A stretch of DNA of 32,470 nucleotides from Eubacterium sp. GTDB lineage: Bacteria > Bacillota > Clostridia > Lachnospirales > Lachnospiraceae. Numbering within the stretch: position 1 is the first letter of the stretch; each line of letters begins with the position of its first letter. The position numbers and the translations under genes were made by a program. The notes below the pieces were generated by a model that saw only the letters and a list, made by a program, of their open reading frames with translations, had not been told where the DNA came from and did not search any database. Positions 948 to 31,915 of the stretch are shown in pieces. The stretch lies in assembly GCA_017614395.1 (NCBI GenBank), contig JAGABX010000011.1, positions 1-32,470 on the forward strand. Direction: 5' to 3'.

Positions 948-3683
948 ATGAAAAAGAAATCATATCGTTTAACTGTGCTGAGACTTTTGTTAATCTGTGC
1001 ATGCCTGATGTGCGCGGGAATGTTTTTCGGTTCAGAGAAACAGTCGCAGGCAAAAAAGAAATGGTACAAAATTGAGGGAGAATGGGTTGGGTTTGATAAA
1101 AAAACAGGAGTGCTTTCATGGGCGCCTATCTCCTATGTCCCGAAAAAAATAGCCGGGACGAAGGTAAAGGTCATAGGGAAATGGGCTTTTTCAGGTAATA
1201 AAAAGATTGTGACTGCCGTTATTCCCTCCTCTGTAAAAAGGATTGACAAGGGCGCGTTCAACGCATGTCCCAAGCTTAAAAAAGTTGTTTTCCCCAAAAA
1301 TTTCAAACTCGGGGATGTCAAGGACAACTCATATTTCTGGGGATCAAATAAACTGGAAACTGTTGTAAACAATCCGGACAAAAACTGGCAGGCGCGAATA
1401 GATACATTTGAAAAAGCAGTAAAGTATTTGGACATGCAGGGGCCGCAGTACTTTTTACAAAATGTCCGTAGCAGCAAAAACCAGTGGATCGTCGGACCTG
1501 ACGGCAAACATATCAATCTCGCCGATCCGGAGGCGGATGATGAATGGCAGGTCATTGTTAACAAGGCGCAGGAGCTGACGAGCGGATGCACCACCGACAG
1601 GGAGAAGGCAGAGGCAATATGCACCTGGATATCGAAATATCTTCACTATGATACCGTATGGATGGAGAAGTTTCAGGAGTGGAGAAAAACGCATGACGAA
1701 AACACCGAGGTATTTCCGCTGAAAAAGGTTACGGACGCATATGGTCTGATAACATGGGATCCGTCCGAGCATGAGGGTGAGACGGCAATGACTACCTGCG
1801 GCGGTTACGGAAATCTCACACAGGCGTTATTCGGCGCGGTCGGAATTCCGTGCGTGCATGTCTGGCGCGAGCAGAAGGAAGGCGAGAGAATAGACCATGT
1901 ATTCAACTGCGCATATGTCGGTGGCAGGTGGATATGGATTGACAGTACCTACATGAGTGATGAGAAGCTCGACTATTTCGACTGCGCTCCGGCCGGATTC
2001 GCGGCGAGTGACCACCGATGTGATGACATCAATCTCGATAATCTCGATGATCTGATCGCGGGACAGACTGCGCCGGTGGAGACAAATAAAACAGATAGCA
2101 ATTCCAATACCGAATATGTCAGGATAGACGGATTGAGCTGGGGGATTGACAGAGCAAGCAATACACTCAAGTGGGTTCCCAAGGAGTGGACAGGAACGGT
2201 TATCCCGACTGAGCTCGACGGAATGACGGTCTATGCCATCGGAGATTATGCGGTTCAAAACCATGATGAAATTCGTGAGATAATAATTCCGGAGGGAATC
2301 ACGTCTGTTGGTGAGGGCGCATTCCGGAACTGTGAACGGCTGAGTTGCGTTACCGTTCCGGCGAGCGTGAAAGAAATCAAAGACTATGCTTTTTCCGGTT
2401 GTGATGAGTTGGAAAATGTTGTCTACAACGGAAACCAAAAGGACATTAAATTCGGAGTATATTCTTTTTCAGGAGCATTCTTTTTACATCCCGATTTTTC
2501 AGACGCATATAAAAAAGGAATTTATTTCAAAAATCTCAATGAGATAAAACTAACAGGCAATTTCGCCGATGATATGGTCGCGATCGGAACCTCGCAGGTC
2601 GGATATCATCAGGGAAATGACGAGAGCGAAATGCACGGCTATAACAAGCTCGGCGGTGAATACTATTCCGAGTACAATTACTACACAGGCTCCCCGGACT
2701 GGCAATGGGGCATGAAGGATTTTGTAAAACAGAGTGATTATCCATACGGCTACGGAGGCTGGTGTGGGAATTTCTGTGACTGGTGCATGAGCATGGCCGG
2801 TCTGCCGAAGGAATGCTCGTCGTTCTACGGAAACAGGGATCAGTCAGTAAAATGGAAGGACACGGTATATGCGGGTGGAAATTATGAGTTGAAAAAGGGC
2901 GACATCATGCATATGTCAGCCGGGCATTACTGCATGATAGTATCCGTGACGGTAGATGGCAGCAAGGTAAAAATAAAGACACTGAACGGCAATCCTGATG
3001 TATCATGGAAAACGTATGTGCTGAACAAGTCCAATGGTAAAAATAACGAGAGTCACAATTATGATTTTGATGAGGTTTTCCCTCTGGACAGTTACGCGGC
3101 AAGTGATGTGAAATACTATACGGTTACATTTGATCCTGATGGTGGCAGTGGCGGTGTGAGTGAGAAAACTGTTTTTGAGGGAGCAAATTACGGCCTTCTG
3201 CCTAAACCCGTGAAATCCGGATTCACATTTGACGGATGGTTCACGGAGAAAAACGGCGGAGGTAAAAAAATATCCGCCTACAGAAATGTATGGCTCGATG
3301 GCAACATAACGGTTTACGCAAATTGGAAAGAGGGCGCCGAACCGGATTATCTCGACATCGATACATACGTGAGTCACGCGCCGGAGCATTCATCCATATC
3401 AGAACAGTTTGCGAGGATATATCTCACGAAGGATACTTTTTCATATGCCGATGTAAAAAAGAAGGCGCAGAAAACCAGGATAAAAAGAATGAACGGCAAG
3501 GGAAAAATGACCTGCAAAAATGTTACCGAGGGAGCCAAAAAGAAATACATAAAACTGGGAAATGATGGCCGTGTTACGATAAAAAAAGGCGCTCCGCGAG
3601 GAACCTATGCTATTCATGTTACAGTCGACCAATATAAAACCGTGAACATGACACAGGCAACAGTTTATATCAAGATAGTGTAA
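948..3683 (+). CDS. Secreted LRR / transglutaminase-like / CHAP-like surface protein
   Basis: The start at 948 is chosen because AGAAAGGAG precedes it and it opens a signal peptide (MKKKSYRLTV then a hydrophobic core to about residue 28). The frame is open further upstream but without these marks. The product is 911 aa. Domains in order: BspA-type leucine-rich repeat at about 72-118 (IDKGAFNACPKLKKVVFP); transglutaminase-like core with Cys284 (TTCGGYGN), His317 (DHVFN) and Asp332 (WIDSTY); second LRR at about 425-495; CHAP/NlpC-like amidase core with Cys606 (GGWCGNFCDWC) and His660 (SAGHYCMIV); an InlB B-type repeat at about 725-795 (GFTFDGWFTEKNGG...VYANWK); and a basic C-terminal domain. 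No LPxTG motif is present. Probably extracellular, acting on peptidoglycan or proteins. It ends 5 bp from the stop of the convergent gene. Confidence 0.88.
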   Translation: MKKKSYRLTVLRLLLICACLMCAGMFFGSEKQSQAKKKWYKIEGEWVGFDKKTGVLSWAPISYVPKKIAGTKVKVIGKWAFSGNKKIVTAVIPSSVKRIDKGAFNACPKLKKVVFPKNFKLGDVKDNSYFWGSNKLETVVNNPDKNWQARIDTFEKAVKYLDMQGPQYFLQNVRSSKNQWIVGPDGKHINLADPEADDEWQVIVNKAQELTSGCTTDREKAEAICTWISKYLHYDTVWMEKFQEWRKTHDENTEVFPLKKVTDAYGLITWDPSEHEGETAMTTCGGYGNLTQALFGAVGIPCVHVWREQKEGERIDHVFNCAYVGGRWIWIDSTYMSDEKLDYFDCAPAGFAASDHRCDDINLDNLDDLIAGQTAPVETNKTDSNSNTEYVRIDGLSWGIDRASNTLKWVPKEWTGTVIPTELDGMTVYAIGDYAVQNHDEIREIIIPEGITSVGEGAFRNCERLSCVTVPASVKEIKDYAFSGCDELENVVYNGNQKDIKFGVYSFSGAFFLHPDFSDAYKKGIYFKNLNEIKLTGNFADDMVAIGTSQVGYHQGNDESEMHGYNKLGGEYYSEYNYYTGSPDWQWGMKDFVKQSDYPYGYGGWCGNFCDWCMSMAGLPKECSSFYGNRDQSVKWKDTVYAGGNYELKKGDIMHMSAGHYCMIVSVTVDGSKVKIKTLNGNPDVSWKTYVLNKSNGKNNESHNYDFDEVFPLDSYAASDVKYYTVTFDPDGGSGGVSEKTVFEGANYGLLPKPVKSGFTFDGWFTEKNGGGKKISAYRNVWLDGNITVYANWKEGAEPDYLDIDTYVSHAPEHSSISEQFARIYLTKDTFSYADVKKKAQKTRIKRMNGKGKMTCKNVTEGAKKKYIKLGNDGRVTIKKGAPRGTYAIHVTVDQYKTVNMTQATVYIKIV

Positions 3684-3688
3684 ACATA

Positions 3689-4768
3689 TTATGGTGCGGT
3701 GGCAGAGCATATTTCGAGTCTGCGGTGAAACATCTGCCTCCACTCATCATGACCGGCAAACCATGCGTCATCAAATTCACCGATCGGATGAAAACCGATG
3801 TGGCTGATCGCGTCCAGTGCCGCCTCACGCTGATTTATGGTCCGCAGGGGCTGGCACATGGCGCCGTCTGTTGTGTCATATGAACGGAACGCCTGATTAA
3901 AATCCATCAGGTCATGCAGCCGGATACGCTCGCCGCTTTCGTTATCTATCAGCCATCCCCAGTTGCCCCAGTGACGGTCGGTATTTCCGACCAGATAATC
4001 AATTATATTCATCGTGTAAAAACCATGCGCATCTTTTTTTAATACATCCTCCAACCAATTGATTTCGTGGTTGACAGAGTAGATCTGAAATGCCTCCATC
4101 GTAGCGATACTGTATTTTTTAGAAGTGAAAATCTCTGAACGGGTAACTTTTGTATCTTCAAAACAGTCTTCTGTATATCTGACCTGCGGAACATCAAAAC
4201 AGCCGGCAATTCGGCTTGCGATAAGTTCACGGTCAACTGCTTCTTCATTGCCGTCCTTCAACAAATAAAATGTATCTCCGCGCCTAATCCATGCCTTCGG
4301 AAACATGCCGGGCGTGTTCAGGTTGTTTGCGATCAGGTGGCGGTTTTCAACTGTCATTTGTTTGCCACGCAACGACAGGTCAGTAAATGCGTTGGTCAGA
4401 GAGTGGTCATACAGATTAATATCGGCGAATGATATGTCTTCACCGGTCTCTCTGACCCAGTACAGGTCTATCAACGACAATGCGTGATAACTCATTGCAA
4501 TTTCCGCGCGATCGCGGTCCGTAGTCAATTGTGAAGCGCCGATACTATTCAATATTTCCTTGATATATGCACGATCAATATTGATCAGGCGTGTGGCACA
4601 CCAATGATAGAAATTGTTGAGATTCTGGATCATTATATCTATATCATCAGTTGTTTTCTCGAGAAAAAGATCATAGGGAAGGCGAGCAGAGTCACGAATA
4701 ATACAACTGCCGTTCCTGTTCACAGTGGCAATTTCGTGATCTCCGTGCATGATAACCATGTCTGTCAT
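3689..4768 (-). CDS. Solitary HipA-like kinase
   Basis: A 359-aa protein with the C-terminal kinase core of the HipA/CtkA group. Lys171 (FYLLKDG) fits the ATP-binding lysine. GNTDRHWGN places the catalytic Asp at 264, and LMDFNQAF places the metal-binding Asp at 289. The N-terminal half does not resemble the HipA N1 domain, so this is not a canonical HipA toxin; similar Firmicutes proteins are often called HipA-domain or, misleadingly, excisionase. The start is supported by GGGAGG at 4777-4782 on the minus strand. No HipB-type partner is adjacent. It is divergent from the sigma-WYL gene and has its own consensus promoter with an inverted repeat. Role (Ser/Thr phosphorylation of an unknown target) is inferred from the family. 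Confidence 0.82.
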   Translation of the reverse strand: MTDMVIMHGDHEIATVNRNGSCIIRDSARLPYDLFLEKTTDDIDIMIQNLNNFYHWCATRLINIDRAYIKEILNSIGASQLTTDRDRAEIAMSYHALSLIDLYWVRETGEDISFADINLYDHSLTNAFTDLSLRGKQMTVENRHLIANNLNTPGMFPKAWIRRGDTFYLLKDGNEEAVDRELIASRIAGCFDVPQVRYTEDCFEDTKVTRSEIFTSKKYSIATMEAFQIYSVNHEINWLEDVLKKDAHGFYTMNIIDYLVGNTDRHWGNWGWLIDNESGERIRLHDLMDFNQAFRSYDTTDGAMCQPLRTINQREAALDAISHIGFHPIGEFDDAWFAGHDEWRQMFHRRLEICSATAP

Positions 4769-4872: not shown

Positions 4873-5015
4873 TTAAAACATCTTGCTTTTATTTGGATAA
4901 TATGCTATAATCCAACAGATTGAAAAGCCCTTAACCATAGCCTCATTGTTTCGATTATCATGCTGATGAGATGGCAGCAGTGGTGGGAGAATGGCTGTGT
5001 GAACGATTGGCATAG
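4873..5015 (+). pseudogene. Relic of a duplicated Est1E-like esterase gene (promoter/leader fused to its 3' end)
   Basis: Bases about 4873-4937 match the promoter and leader of the esterase gene at 10169-10957 almost base for base, including TTGCTT, ATGCTATAAT, TCCAACA, ATTGAAA and TTAACCA. From 4944 the sequence jumps to the last 24 codons of that gene. The 43 bases from CATTGTTTCG through GCAGTGGTGG are identical in both places. Translation gives HCFDYHADEMAAVV then GEWLCERLA and a stop at 5013-5015, against EKWLKNDDM in the intact gene. About 740 bp of coding sequence are missing. The simplest reading is a gene duplication followed by internal deletion; the promoter survived. Confidence 0.85.
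4883..4911 (+). promoter_or_regulatory. Captured promoter reading toward the sigma-WYL gene
   Basis: TTGCTT (4883-4888), 17-bp spacer, TATAAT (4906-4911) with an extended -10 TG (ATGCTATAAT). It is conserved from the esterase promoter at 11008-11036. The predicted start is near 4918, giving a leader of about 150 nt to the ATG at 5066, with no terminator-like hairpin seen between. Confidence 0.72.
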
Positions 5016-5065
5016 ATGAAACATAATGAAAATTGATTTCAGGTTTGACAGAACAGGAGGTATTC

Positions 5066-6790
5066 ATGGAAGAATCGTCTGAAAAACACATCGCCGAATT
5101 AGTTGACAGGGCAAAAAACGGTGATAATGACGCATGGACTGAGCTTGTTAATTATTTTCGCAAATACATAGAAAGACTAGCCGGGAAGTACGGATCAAAC
5201 GGCACAGTGGATATTGACGATCTGATATCAGTCGGAATGATCGGTTTCTGTGAGGCCGTCAGACACTTTGATCCGTCAAAGGGAACATCGCTCAAAACAT
5301 TCGCCACATATTACATAACCGGTGCAATTAATGACGAACTCAGGATAGCGCTGAATCCAACGGGAATGAACACGGCCGGTTTAAAGGATGAAGAAACCCG
5401 GGATATTCTGTTATCATATTCATCAGTAGAAGAGTTGAGCGAACAGGGTTTGGATATTCCGGCGCCTGATATATGGAGTAAACTGGAAACAGAGATATCA
5501 GAACCGGTGAAAAAATATGACGATAAAGCTGAAAAACAGGCCGATAACCCTCAGGAGACTGCAGCGAAGGAACAAACCCCCGATGTCAGTGAAGTCATCG
5601 ATAATGCAATTGACAAGGGAAAATTCTCGGAAACGAGAAGAGCACTACAGATTTTAGAGGTACTGAAGAAGGCTACTGATGATAATCATCCAGTTAACAA
5701 GGAAAAACTTGCTGAATTGCTGAAAGTATACAGAGCAGGAAAATATAACAACAGTACTCCAACCAAGGCTGATAACACGTTTACCAGAAGCATAGAGGAG
5801 ATTCTCGCGGAGGTTGATCCCCTGAATTACACAGATGAAAATGACGACGAATACCTGATCAGATACAGCGGGTATCAGGAGGATCGTTTAGACCAAAAGA
5901 TAAATAAAAAGAAAAAGGGACTGGAAATAACTGATTTCACTTATAATCATTTATTCAGCAATGATGAGTTGGATCAGCTGATCAATGTTATCAGTTTGTC
6001 AGCAATTCTGTCGGATGATGACAGGAATAATCTGGTTTCCAAGATACTCAGTACAGCCAGCATGTATTATGAAAACCCGTTATGGAATGGCAAGAAGCTG
6101 CGGTATGGCGCGGATGGGATCCAGGGACGGTTTTTGATCAGCGATGATGAGAGCAGAAAAAAGCTCGCGGAGAACATATATCGGATACGGCGCGCCATAT
6201 GCGAGTTTAAACAAGTATATTTTTATTTCAACTGTCATAATGAGAACCATGAGGTGGTTCATAAAAATGAGAGGCATCACATACTGAGTCCGTATCATCT
6301 GGTGGTATATAATGACCAGTATTATTGCATCGGCCTCAGGAGTGATGACCGGCAAAACAGGATATGGCACTACAGACTGGATCTGATGTCGGATATTCAG
6401 CCGTATCTGGATCCTGATGGAAAAGAGAAAATGATTGAGGTCGTTCCGTTCGAAGGTCTGCCGATATTTAATGCGTACTGGGATCCGGAAAAGTATCTGG
6501 CAGAACATCTGAACATGGGATTTGACGAACCCAGAGAGGTCAGGATCAAGGTCAGGAAGGACCGTTACAATCTGTTATATGATTCTTTTTCAAATCATTA
6601 TAAAAAAGTCAGGGAAGCGGAGGAACCGGGCTATGACATCGTCAGCGTAAAAACGTCCCCGTATATGATCGTCAGGTGGGCGCTGCAACACAGCGAGTAC
6701 GTGGAAGTACTGAACAATGACATCAGAGAGGAAATTCAGAATTTGACAAAAGAGATTTCTACGAGATACGGGAGGAAACCTGAGGATTGA
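5066..6790 (+). CDS. Sigma-70 region 2 - HTH - WYL fusion regulator
   Basis: 574 aa from the ATG at 5066, behind ACAGGAGG at 5053-5060. Residues about 10-93 match sigma-70 region 2: DDLISVGMIGF, AVRHFDPSKG and LKTFATYYITGAINDELR, the core-RNA-polymerase-binding and -10-recognition helices. No sigma region 4 follows. Residues 100-185 are a charged linker. Residues 187-250 resemble the N-terminal HTH of WYL regulators (RRALQILEVLKKATDDNHPV, later RSIEEILAEVDP). Residues about 377-445 form a WYL domain (SPYHLVVYNDQYYCIGLR, IWHYRLDLM; the WYL triad itself reads YYC). About 488-565 resembles the WCX extension. WYL domains usually sense a ligand or nucleic acid, so a ligand-controlled sigma-like or anti-termination role is possible but is inference. 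Divergent from the HipA-like kinase gene. Confidence 0.85.
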   Translation: MEESSEKHIAELVDRAKNGDNDAWTELVNYFRKYIERLAGKYGSNGTVDIDDLISVGMIGFCEAVRHFDPSKGTSLKTFATYYITGAINDELRIALNPTGMNTAGLKDEETRDILLSYSSVEELSEQGLDIPAPDIWSKLETEISEPVKKYDDKAEKQADNPQETAAKEQTPDVSEVIDNAIDKGKFSETRRALQILEVLKKATDDNHPVNKEKLAELLKVYRAGKYNNSTPTKADNTFTRSIEEILAEVDPLNYTDENDDEYLIRYSGYQEDRLDQKINKKKKGLEITDFTYNHLFSNDELDQLINVISLSAILSDDDRNNLVSKILSTASMYYENPLWNGKKLRYGADGIQGRFLISDDESRKKLAENIYRIRRAICEFKQVYFYFNCHNENHEVVHKNERHHILSPYHLVVYNDQYYCIGLRSDDRQNRIWHYRLDLMSDIQPYLDPDGKEKMIEVVPFEGLPIFNAYWDPEKYLAEHLNMGFDEPREVRIKVRKDRYNLLYDSFSNHYKKVREAEEPGYDIVSVKTSPYMIVRWALQHSEYVEVLNNDIREEIQNLTKEISTRYGRKPED

Positions 6791-10168: not shown

Positions 10169-10957
10169 CTACATATCATCATTCTTGAGCCATTTTTCCA
10201 CCACTGCTGCCATCTCATCAGCATGATAATCGAAACAATGTGTGTCACCGGTAATTTCAACAAAGGTGGAGTTTTTGTATCGGTTCGCTGCATCTCTTCC
10301 ATACTTTATCGGGACCGATTCATCTGCACTGCCGTGTACGATCAAAACAGGACCGGTATACTTGTCTATGCTCTCCTCCATATTGATTGTCTGAGCAACC
10401 ATGAGATAATCACTTTTTATAACAAAGTCATCCCAAAGCGGCAACTCATCGGGGATATGCATGGGATCAAATTCTATCCCGAGTATTTCACCCCGCCTGC
10501 TGTTATCCGGTATGTGACATGCCGGTGACAATGGGATGAGTCCTGCAATCTCAAACCGTTCTCCGTACGCCGCCGCTGCCAGCATAACCGCGCATCCTCC
10601 CTGTGAGTGCCCGCAGAGATATATATCCGATACATAATCAAGATCACGGACATACTCAAGGACTGACAGGATATTATCAAGCCAGAGATTCAGTGTATGA
10701 TCGCAGAAAAAGCCTCCGCTCTCGCCATGCCCGTACATGTCGGCTCGCAGAGTAACACATCCTGCCCGCAGCGCAGCATCTCTCACCGCGAGAAGGTGAG
10801 GCTCCTCCTTGTTCCCGGTTATGCCGTGAATTATGATGCAGATGGGTGTTTTATTCTTTTTATCAAAACCGTCAGGAAAATCAATGACCGCTGACAGATT
10901 AATCCCGGCGGACTCTATGGTTATATTATCTGTCATGTGATGCTTATTCCGAATCAT
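10169..10957 (-). CDS. Est1E/feruloyl-esterase-like alpha/beta hydrolase
   Basis: 262 aa from the ATG at 10957, supported by AAAGGAG (10964-10970) six bases upstream; a longer frame exists but begins inside the 5' leader. Motifs: IIIHGITGNKEE (oxyanion region), GHSQGG with nucleophile Ser118, HGSADESVP with Asp212, and GDTHCFDYH with His240. Sequence and lid segment (ADMYGHGESGGFFCDHTL) closely resemble Butyrivibrio Est1E and lactobacillus cinnamoyl esterases, which release hydroxycinnamic acids from plant cell-wall esters. No signal peptide, so it acts in the cytoplasm on imported esters. Co-transcribed with the symporter downstream, possibly handling a carboxylate product. A truncated duplicate lies at 4873-5015. 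Confidence 0.9.
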   Translation of the reverse strand: MIRNKHHMTDNITIESAGINLSAVIDFPDGFDKKNKTPICIIIHGITGNKEEPHLLAVRDAALRAGCVTLRADMYGHGESGGFFCDHTLNLWLDNILSVLEYVRDLDYVSDIYLCGHSQGGCAVMLAAAAYGERFEIAGLIPLSPACHIPDNSRRGEILGIEFDPMHIPDELPLWDDFVIKSDYLMVAQTINMEESIDKYTGPVLIVHGSADESVPIKYGRDAANRYKNSTFVEITGDTHCFDYHADEMAAVVEKWLKNDDM

Positions 10958-11007
10958 GATTTGCTCCTTTGTTTCCGAGTATTGGTTAAAGGCTTTCAAT
11001 TTGTTGG

Positions 11008-30676: not shown

Positions 30677-31915
30677 CTATAGTTTTGAAAATGCCGGGCG
30701 CATGTATTCCGTGACTTGGCGTGGTATGCCATACTTCGAGGATAGCTTCTCCCAGTTATTGCGAACTGTTTTTATTATTTCATTTGCGGTTTTTTCTGCG
30801 GTGTTCTTGTTGATTCCGTAGTAATGAGCAGATGATACTGCTAAATCCCTGTGTATACGGCTGTCGCCCGGAACTATTTGCAGAGAGAGTTGATCTCCGT
30901 AAGGGATGGGATTGATATCGTAGGCGGGAGAGAGGCGCCATCCTTTTTCTGACAAAATAAACCCGTGGTTTCTCAAGTGGTCGTCTGAATTAGATATCGC
31001 CATGTTAAACACCATGCGTTTCCATAATTCTTCAAGATCGGAGGATGCATCCGCACTGTGAGCTCGCAGGAAACCTGCAATATCAAGGTAGCTTGCACTG
31101 TTATCCATATCGGTTTTTCCGAGCATAGTCATTGCAGACGAAAAATGCACGCGCCGATCTATGGTTCTATCAAATCTTTTTATTAAAAAGGTTCCCGCTT
31201 TTTTTGAAAAGTGCTCCAACTTTGCTTCCGGAACAAAAAGACCGCATAAAAGAGCCAGATCATGGGCAACCATTTCCCAGGCACCTATGTCGTACTCATC
31301 GTGTTTAGACGGAAATTTGGCAATCCAAAGCATTCCTTTTTCATCCCGGATGGTTGCTTTCGGACGTGCTCCGCCGAGAGAGGAACCGGGGGCAAGTAAC
31401 TGGTCAAGCCACTTTTTCTCGAGTAAATTTTCATTGGTTTCAATATGCCGAACAGCGGATTCCAGTTTGCGAAGTTCCACCCACGGAGGTGTTGCCAACC
31501 TGTCATCGGAGGAAAGAAAAGGTCCGTCCGTTTCAGTCTTAAAGCGCAGTCCCCCCATCCGTGCCTCGTCGTAGACACCGAGGAGATAGTCGCTCTCTGT
31601 CAGTTTTCTTGGGACGCGGCCCTCTTCAGATGCATAGATAGCCTCGCGTCTCTGCATCAGGAGGCGTCCCCATCGATCCGGACAGGAATCGGCGAATATA
31701 CCAAATATCGGTTTGTCATCCTGCTGATATTGTCTGCCTGTGTAGGGCAGCAGATCGTAATCGAACAGAAAGCGATTGGATGATGAGGTTAGCCAGTTGT
31801 TATCAAACTCAAATGAAAAAGACTCCTGTCCTCTCGTGGTAAAGGAATACAGAGTTCCGATTCGTTGTGGGTCATCTTCGCGCCAACCGGCATATACATT
31901 GATTGTTTTATTCAT
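30677..31915 (-). CDS. hipA: HipA toxin, Ser/Thr protein kinase
   Basis: 412 aa, canonical HipA length (E. coli 440). The N1 domain starts NVYAGWREDDPQRIGTL. Motifs: the Gly-rich loop SSLGGARPKA (178-187), ATP-contacting Lys200 (WIAKFPS), catalytic Asp311 (ISNSDDHLRNHGF) and metal Asp333 (SPAYDINP). HipA kinases phosphorylate translation factors such as GltX and induce growth arrest; this target is inferred from the family. The start at 31915 has GGTGG upstream. The hipB-like gene is 73 bp upstream on the same strand, a wider gap than usual. Convergent with the surface protein gene, 36 bp apart, with no obvious terminator between. Confidence 0.93.
   Translation of the reverse strand: MNKTINVYAGWREDDPQRIGTLYSFTTRGQESFSFEFDNNWLTSSSNRFLFDYDLLPYTGRQYQQDDKPIFGIFADSCPDRWGRLLMQRREAIYASEEGRVPRKLTESDYLLGVYDEARMGGLRFKTETDGPFLSSDDRLATPPWVELRKLESAVRHIETNENLLEKKWLDQLLAPGSSLGGARPKATIRDEKGMLWIAKFPSKHDEYDIGAWEMVAHDLALLCGLFVPEAKLEHFSKKAGTFLIKRFDRTIDRRVHFSSAMTMLGKTDMDNSASYLDIAGFLRAHSADASSDLEELWKRMVFNMAISNSDDHLRNHGFILSEKGWRLSPAYDINPIPYGDQLSLQIVPGDSRIHRDLAVSSAHYYGINKNTAEKTANEIIKTVRNNWEKLSSKYGIPRQVTEYMRPAFSKL

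Follow-up and report, generated by a model that had tools for sequence, protein, structure and literature searches.

The gene at positions 5066..6790 (+ strand) of the window, the 32,470-nucleotide stretch of DNA analysed here, encodes one protein chain in which sigma-70 region 2 is joined to a WYL-family regulator. Taken as a whole, the evidence is best explained if this protein is an alternative sigma factor in which a WYL-family activator within the chain takes over from region 4, an explanation that we hold with considerable confidence. It builds on computed features, namely the domains, the recurrence of the fusion, the existence of a two-gene form, and a promoter motif that keeps its spacing and lies close to these genes. 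Normally the activator is one protein and the sigma factor another, whose region 4 reads the -35 element. If the explanation is right, a single chain combines the two functions, with a sensing dimer in the place of region 4.

The gene is a single uninterrupted frame of 574 amino acids plus stop that starts with ATG, is preceded by a visible Shine-Dalgarno sequence (AGGAGG, 5055..5060, +), and has homologues of the same architecture. The initial annotation had recognised sigma region 2 at the N-terminus, which was confirmed: residues 27-93 (5144..5344, +) match Pfam PF04542 (Sigma70_r2) with 46.9 bits against a cut-off of 24 (E 2.4e-12), and the motifs quoted in that annotation are present in the translation. 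The best NCBIfam matches of the N-terminus (best 25 of 55) are FliA/WhiG, SigB/F/G and SigK. Comparison of the single sequence with the PDB (E ≤0.01) gave 57 distinct sequences, every one named a sigma factor or WhiG, and a profile comparison gave 52 distinct sequences, sigma factors only. A linker of residues 94-185 (5345..5620, +) lies at the place of sigma regions 3-4. The annotated lack of region 4 also held: Sigma70_r4 was not listed for the window protein at E up to 1, a listing limited by the HMMER filters that remove most matches with E above 0.1, and was listed for 0 of 47 fused members at E ≤0.001.

The further claim that the remainder is a complete WYL regulator stood in part. The WYL domain itself (residues 372-445, 6179..6400, +), with Y-Y-C as its WYL motif, passes the threshold of Pfam PF13280 with 23.3 bits against 21.8. 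The WCX-like part (residues 489-550, 6530..6715, +) stays below it, with 18.4 bits against 23.9 for PF25583 (E 0.0029). The presumed winged HTH, residues ~186-262 (5621..5851, +), is matched by no Pfam model; its assignment follows from its place in the chain, its conservation and the promoter evidence given below, and the recognition helix of the WYL half would lie within it at residues ~237-247. In an independent Pfam check of the family (E ≤0.001), Sigma70_r2 was found in 37 and WYL in all 47 fused members. WCX passes E 0.001 in two of the 47 and is matched at E ≤0.1 by five of 16 proteins in a mixed WYL set, and a winged helix appears as one weak match (E 0.04-0.05) in single members only.

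A possible housekeeping promoter of the fusion gene is seen at 4883..4911 (+; TTGCTT, 17 bp, TATAAT). Its -10 is perfect and its -35 poor, and it is absent from the output of a consensus scanner that requires four of six bases at -35. In the same area, 4882-4937 nearly repeats the start region (50/56 bases) and 4944-4996 the 3' part (51/53 bases) of a hydrolase-like gene at 10169-10999 (-). Immediately upstream of the fusion gene they form a duplicate with an internal deletion, and this duplicate may lend the gene a TATAAT.

The full fusion was found in two of 39 genomes of the same genus, the window's own and G011, and in four of 392 genomes of an order-wide sample, where up to three candidates per genome were scored and full length was confirmed. 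Genome contigs were scanned as well and contain 73 loci. In 50 of these, region 2 lies in the same frame according to a sigma profile built here, the seeds of which were the window, two separate sigma genes and 20 of those 50 loci. The two samples overlap by coordinates (G011 is locus L061, G133 is L050, G360 is L040 and G173 is L079). The alignment used for residue counts has 47 rows, the window and 46 of the 50 fused loci; L048, L058 and L071 (3' end open) and L074 (frameshifted) were left out. The analysis also excluded L114 and L117, with frames in the wrong orientation. An NxxG motif that is common in the family starts the linker (N97 and G100, each in 34 of 47 members). Judged by record titles, the hosts are Lachnospiraceae and other Clostridia, many from gut or rumen metagenomes and some from isolates. 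A phage or plasmid origin of the fusion is unsupported: viral contigs contained no relative and no match to the motif described below in an exact search, and no phage or plasmid record covers 80% of the query.

The initial annotation had considered that homologues split into two genes might betray a sequence error. Relatives with two-gene forms do exist, which is what an erroneous joining of two genes by sequencing or assembly would predict, but they are separate operons in their own right, while many assemblies contain the single frame, which is present in 50 of 73 contig loci, and the tree of the WYL part unites 31 fused rows in one clade (99/93). The fusion is therefore not a sequence error; we rejected this explanation and regard its probability as negligible.

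Upstream sigma genes were counted in 13 of the 23 non-fused loci, among them L105 with a broken WYL frame; the remainder are generic WYL proteins (L108-L110) and fragments or frames that start at a contig end (L080, L096, L104, L106, L107, L111, L112). In ten of the 13 the WYL gene directly follows a small sigma gene of the same strand, with 6-38 bp between them or an overlap. Upstream of L082 there is only a region 4-like piece, in L087 the sigma part is joined to an HD domain and lies 2.1 kb upstream, and in L089 the fetched locus gave no sigma match. Of the generic WYL proteins, L108 and L109 lack a sigma match, and that of L110 lies ~1.4 kb downstream on the other strand. All three separate sigma proteins that were scanned contain region 2; for region 4 two gave matches below the cut-off (E 0.003 and 0.015) and one none. 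L079 is a single 793-residue frame with a weak region 2 (E 0.0009, below cut-off), a WYL domain, an extra C-terminal part and, by eye, a region 4-like stretch. Two-gene loci carry the same promoter layout as fused ones, and in the cases examined the split forms mostly keep a region 4-like part, so loss of region 4 is unnecessary for this type of promoter.

In the tree of the WYL part (54 rows), L079 falls inside the two-gene clade. A second fused group of five rows (100/100) is weakly placed, and L095 stands apart on a long branch. On this tree, fused and two-gene states were thus interchanged at least twice, in one direction or the other. In L087 one open frame (1866-3176) contains the HD domain, sigma region 2 and, as a weak match, region 4; a motif site follows directly after it.

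The principal new finding is the promoter motif. The gaps of eight gene arrays behind the fusion contain a recurrent palindrome like TTCAAAATTTTGAA, followed after ten bases by TCCATAATAT. The general form is a 20-bp palindrome (ATCTTCAAAATTTTGAAGAT and lineage variants) at a fixed distance from the -10-like TCCATAATAT; a matrix made from 38 of the 39 sites given below reads ATCTTCAAAATTTTGAAGAT, seven bases, CTCCATAATATA, GTG. If CATAAT occupies -12 to -7, the register we infer, the centre of the palindrome falls at about -31.5 and thus at the -35 position. A regular expression found 39 sites in 926 kb, compared with a mean of 1.1 in ten block shuffles.

Selection by the -10 half alone gave 90 sites in 51 loci, 77 of them oriented like the gene. 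Upstream of these, palindromy appears at one offset only, where 46 of the 90 have at least eight of ten pairs, against one site at +1 and none at the remaining 15 offsets. As the matrix had been trained on 24 loci, the palindromy test was repeated on 39 sites in 27 other loci. At least seven pairs were found at the same offset in 23 of the 39, compared with 0-2 at twenty other offsets, and 35 of the 39 sites point in the direction of the gene. Of 54 family loci with 1.5 kb downstream, the training loci included, 42 have a full matrix score above 20 and 50 a score above 10; no site above 10 is present in L053, L074, L095 and L100. The maximum was 5.0 in 31 control stretches (170 kb), and shuffled loci score below 5.0 save a few, the highest reaching 13.1 (L098). 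In the lineage variants the letters of the palindrome change in both halves together and the -10 part stays constant, as in CTCAA...TTGAG of G011 and TGCAA...TTGCA of an Oscillospiraceae group.

The initial annotation had offered two readings, a ligand-gated sigma-like factor that makes its second DNA contact through the HTH of the WYL part, or a regulator tethered to RNA polymerase. The first is partly supported, and the conserved two-part promoter, the half-sites that change together and the two-gene form of sigma and WYL genes favour it. In the second, region 2 would merely dock the WYL regulator and another sigma factor would open the promoter. A dimer would carry two copies of region 2, of which one polymerase would use one, and in the PafBC and DriD complexes the promoter is opened by the housekeeping sigma factor (PMC11804915, PMC12340889). 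Against this, the fused proteins keep in region 2 the segment with which sigma factors melt the -10 element (T78 in 46 of 47, Y or F79 in 47 of 47), and the -10 element beside these genes comes with a specific TCC prefix. A second sigma factor would also compete for the same clamp site. We consider tethering rather unlikely.

Alternatively, a repressor, which might be the WYL half itself, could use the palindrome as its operator over ordinary sigma-A promoters, with region 2 as a relic. Palindromes over -35 are also a common repressor location. However, no TTGACA-like box is evident, as the motif consensus consists of the palindrome plus the -10; the spacing between the two is constant; and region 2 persists in 50 fused loci and, in a gene of its own, next to split relatives. 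Repression thus seems quite improbable, even less likely than tethering.

For the sigma factor with a built-in activator the following steps can be proposed. Region 2 would dock on core RNA polymerase, read the -10-like TCCATAATAT and open the -10. The WYL half would bind the 20-bp palindrome at the -35 position as a dimer, at a fixed distance from the -10. A ligand in the WYL pocket probably gates the protein, which is likely by analogy with PafBC and DriD. The first arginine of the pair with which PafBC binds ssDNA is kept in all 47 fused members and the second is leucine in all 47, where the positions were set by a weak alignment to PafC (E 0.02) and by the residues named in PMC11804915. 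With leucine at the second position the ligand may differ from that of PafBC. The region 2 residues at the usual -12 contacts differ from those of sigma-70, which would fit a C instead of a T at -12. The regulon would be small and would usually consist of genes adjoining the regulator's own gene, and the same promoter layout would serve the two-gene form, in which a small sigma gene is followed by the WYL gene. Points that speak against this picture, detailed above and below, are the lack of an HTH profile match, the four family loci with no site above 10, the shuffle score of L098, the two genomes with a site but no fusion, the window without a site, the distance between the AAA+ gene and the nearest site in G011, array family A and the region 4-like part of most split forms examined.

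The distribution of the motif is consistent with such a local regulon. In ten carrier genomes (≤3 mismatches) 18 matches occur in seven genomes, 17 of them inside the gene's own locus, compared with one match for the reversed pattern. The eighteenth lies in the genome of L100, on another contig, before genes of the array type. Three of the ten, the genomes of L061, L060 and L049, have lineage variants that are detected by the matrix only. Among the 392 genomes of the order (≤2 mismatches), the motif is present in three of four with the fusion and in two of 388 others (Fisher p 4e-6), where the pattern was derived from eight other loci and the three matching fusion genomes are also among the contig loci. 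The reversed pattern gave no match in these genomes at ≤2 mismatches. In the two other genomes, G242 and G279, a motif site is present and no fusion was found.

The window itself contains no motif site according to the matrix scan. Its genome has one match with three mismatches, at C19:64118, 98 bp before the ATG of an AAA+ gene on the same strand, and this gene encodes a tandem AAA+ protein of 995 residues from a family found in the arrays. No other of the 39 same-genus genomes matches at three mismatches. The reversed pattern gives two matches at that level in the 39 genomes, so a chance match is possible, and the site persuades mainly through the AAA+ gene behind it, together with the fit of the extended site (matrix score 39.1, against a maximum of -3.1 in five shuffles). 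A full-length relative of the AAA+ protein occurs in two of 14 same-genus genomes searched, which are the two fusion carriers; two further genomes of the 14 show partial AAA matches. The AAA+ gene of G011 shares an array with the fusion but follows the nearest site only after ~3.8 kb. As the only site of the window's genome is at C19:64118, the predicted target is unlinked: the AAA+ gene on the other contig is probably the target, and the neighbours of the fusion gene in the window probably are not.

In the eight loci that were drawn, co-directional genes extend over several kb downstream of the gene. The single-linkage clusters of neighbours within 6 kb include an unknown family (39 loci), several kinds of metallophosphoesterase (22, 15 and 8 loci), NT5C-like HAD proteins (12 loci) and the tandem AAA+ protein (ten loci). 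The first genes behind the predicted promoters were counted for 57 of 69 cases, with 12 near-duplicates left out. They include Metallophos (6), NT5C (4), AAA (2), GNAT families (2) and HAD_SAK_2, an RNA-repair family (1), and about two thirds have no family match at E ≤0.001. A relation to a known defence system is unsupported, since PADLOC matches are weak and concern AAA+ proteins only (two of 57). One array family (A) occurs in two of the 392 genomes (E ≤1e-10), neither with the fusion, and thus does not track it.

Several other observations concern these arrays. HAD_SAK_2 proteins, which carry an RNA-repair name in Pfam, lie directly behind the WYL gene in a cluster of four loci (for example L098:5873-6406), a hint that the arrays deal with nucleic-acid ends. 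L052 and L072 contain, by eye, a MobA/MobL-like relaxase frame and an XRE-like regulator behind the arrays, ~4.5-8 kb after the fusion gene, which hints at a mobile element. Just after the predicted start, 16 of 70 leaders have a hairpin (below -4 kcal/mol; counted with no shuffle control) followed by a T-run, among them L049, L052, L055, L064, L072, L083, L142 and L150, an arrangement that resembles a very early attenuator.

Several known systems are comparable. DriD of Caulobacter is a homodimeric WYL activator whose site, ATACGAC(X)7GTCGTAT, overlaps the -35 at a fixed distance from the -10, with the -35 at the site centre (PMC12340889, preprint). The fusion resembles it as a presumed wHTH-WYL activator with a candidate operator that overlaps the -35 (palindrome centre at about -31.5) at a fixed distance from the -10. 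However, DriD acts with the housekeeping sigma factor, which retains domain 4, and has no sigma part in its chain. PafBC of mycobacteria works by sigma adaptation on SigA with a -26 motif (PMC11804915). Here, too, WYL proteins assume the -35 role of sigma domain 4, as proposed for the fusion, but PafBC is a heterodimer and the fusion a single chain, presumably dimeric, and of the PafBC arginine pair the fusion keeps the first alone. RsoA (sigma-2) and SigO (sigma-4) likewise show that sigma-2 and the part that reads upstream are separable modules, although this pair has neither a WYL part nor a fusion. In phage T4 a diverged sigma factor, gp55, uses -10-like promoters without a -35 box and another protein, gp33, sits on the beta flap in the place of region 4, but gp33 is separate and does not bind DNA by itself, and activation comes from the sliding clamp gp45 (PMC7892883). 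ECF sigma factors with a regulatory extension also have a sensor domain fused to a sigma factor; unlike the fusion, they keep both sigma-2 and sigma-4, and the extension senses. WYL does not occur in the text of the review on ECF extensions.

The initial annotation knew of no characterised system with this architecture. This agrees with the open-licence literature, which shows no sigma-WYL fusion as far as article listings and the openings of abstracts go; neither is one present in passages of PMC4012209 and PMC8999054. The parts and the geometry are thus already known, and it is the combination in one chain, with its promoter, that was not found described in these texts. We lean, with modest confidence, towards a new class of initiation factor made of one chain, namely a sigma factor that lacks region 4, brings its own ligand-gated dimeric activator to a -35 palindrome, is related to a two-gene operon of sigma and WYL genes with which it has interchanged more than once, and serves nearly private gene arrays, with phosphoesterases and nucleotidase- and RNA-repair-like proteins among their products, perhaps in a response to nucleic-acid damage or phage.

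The fusion and its matching two-part promoter point to a self-contained genetic switch. Being short, specific and for the most part limited to the gene's neighbourhood, the predicted promoter allows a test with a single protein, polymerase and template, and it might be used as an orthogonal promoter system of compact size. Separate genes, a fusion with a region 4-like stretch and fusions without it make up a natural series that would show how such a factor can arise.

Some minor observations concern the surroundings of the genes. In L072, L052 and L051 the end of an rlmD-like methyltransferase gene (recognised by eye) lies 21-78 bp upstream of the fusion gene, and remnants of its 3' end precede the fusion gene in L066 and, weakly, in L043. 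In G242 (L157) the motif site lies ~240 bp behind an rlmD-like gene, also recognised by eye, without the fusion; such a gene precedes the fusion in some relatives. The neighbourhood of the rlmD-like gene is a possible insertion hot spot. In the window, two frames at 3689-4768 (-) and 30677-31915 (-) are HipA-like, as judged by eye from their translations.
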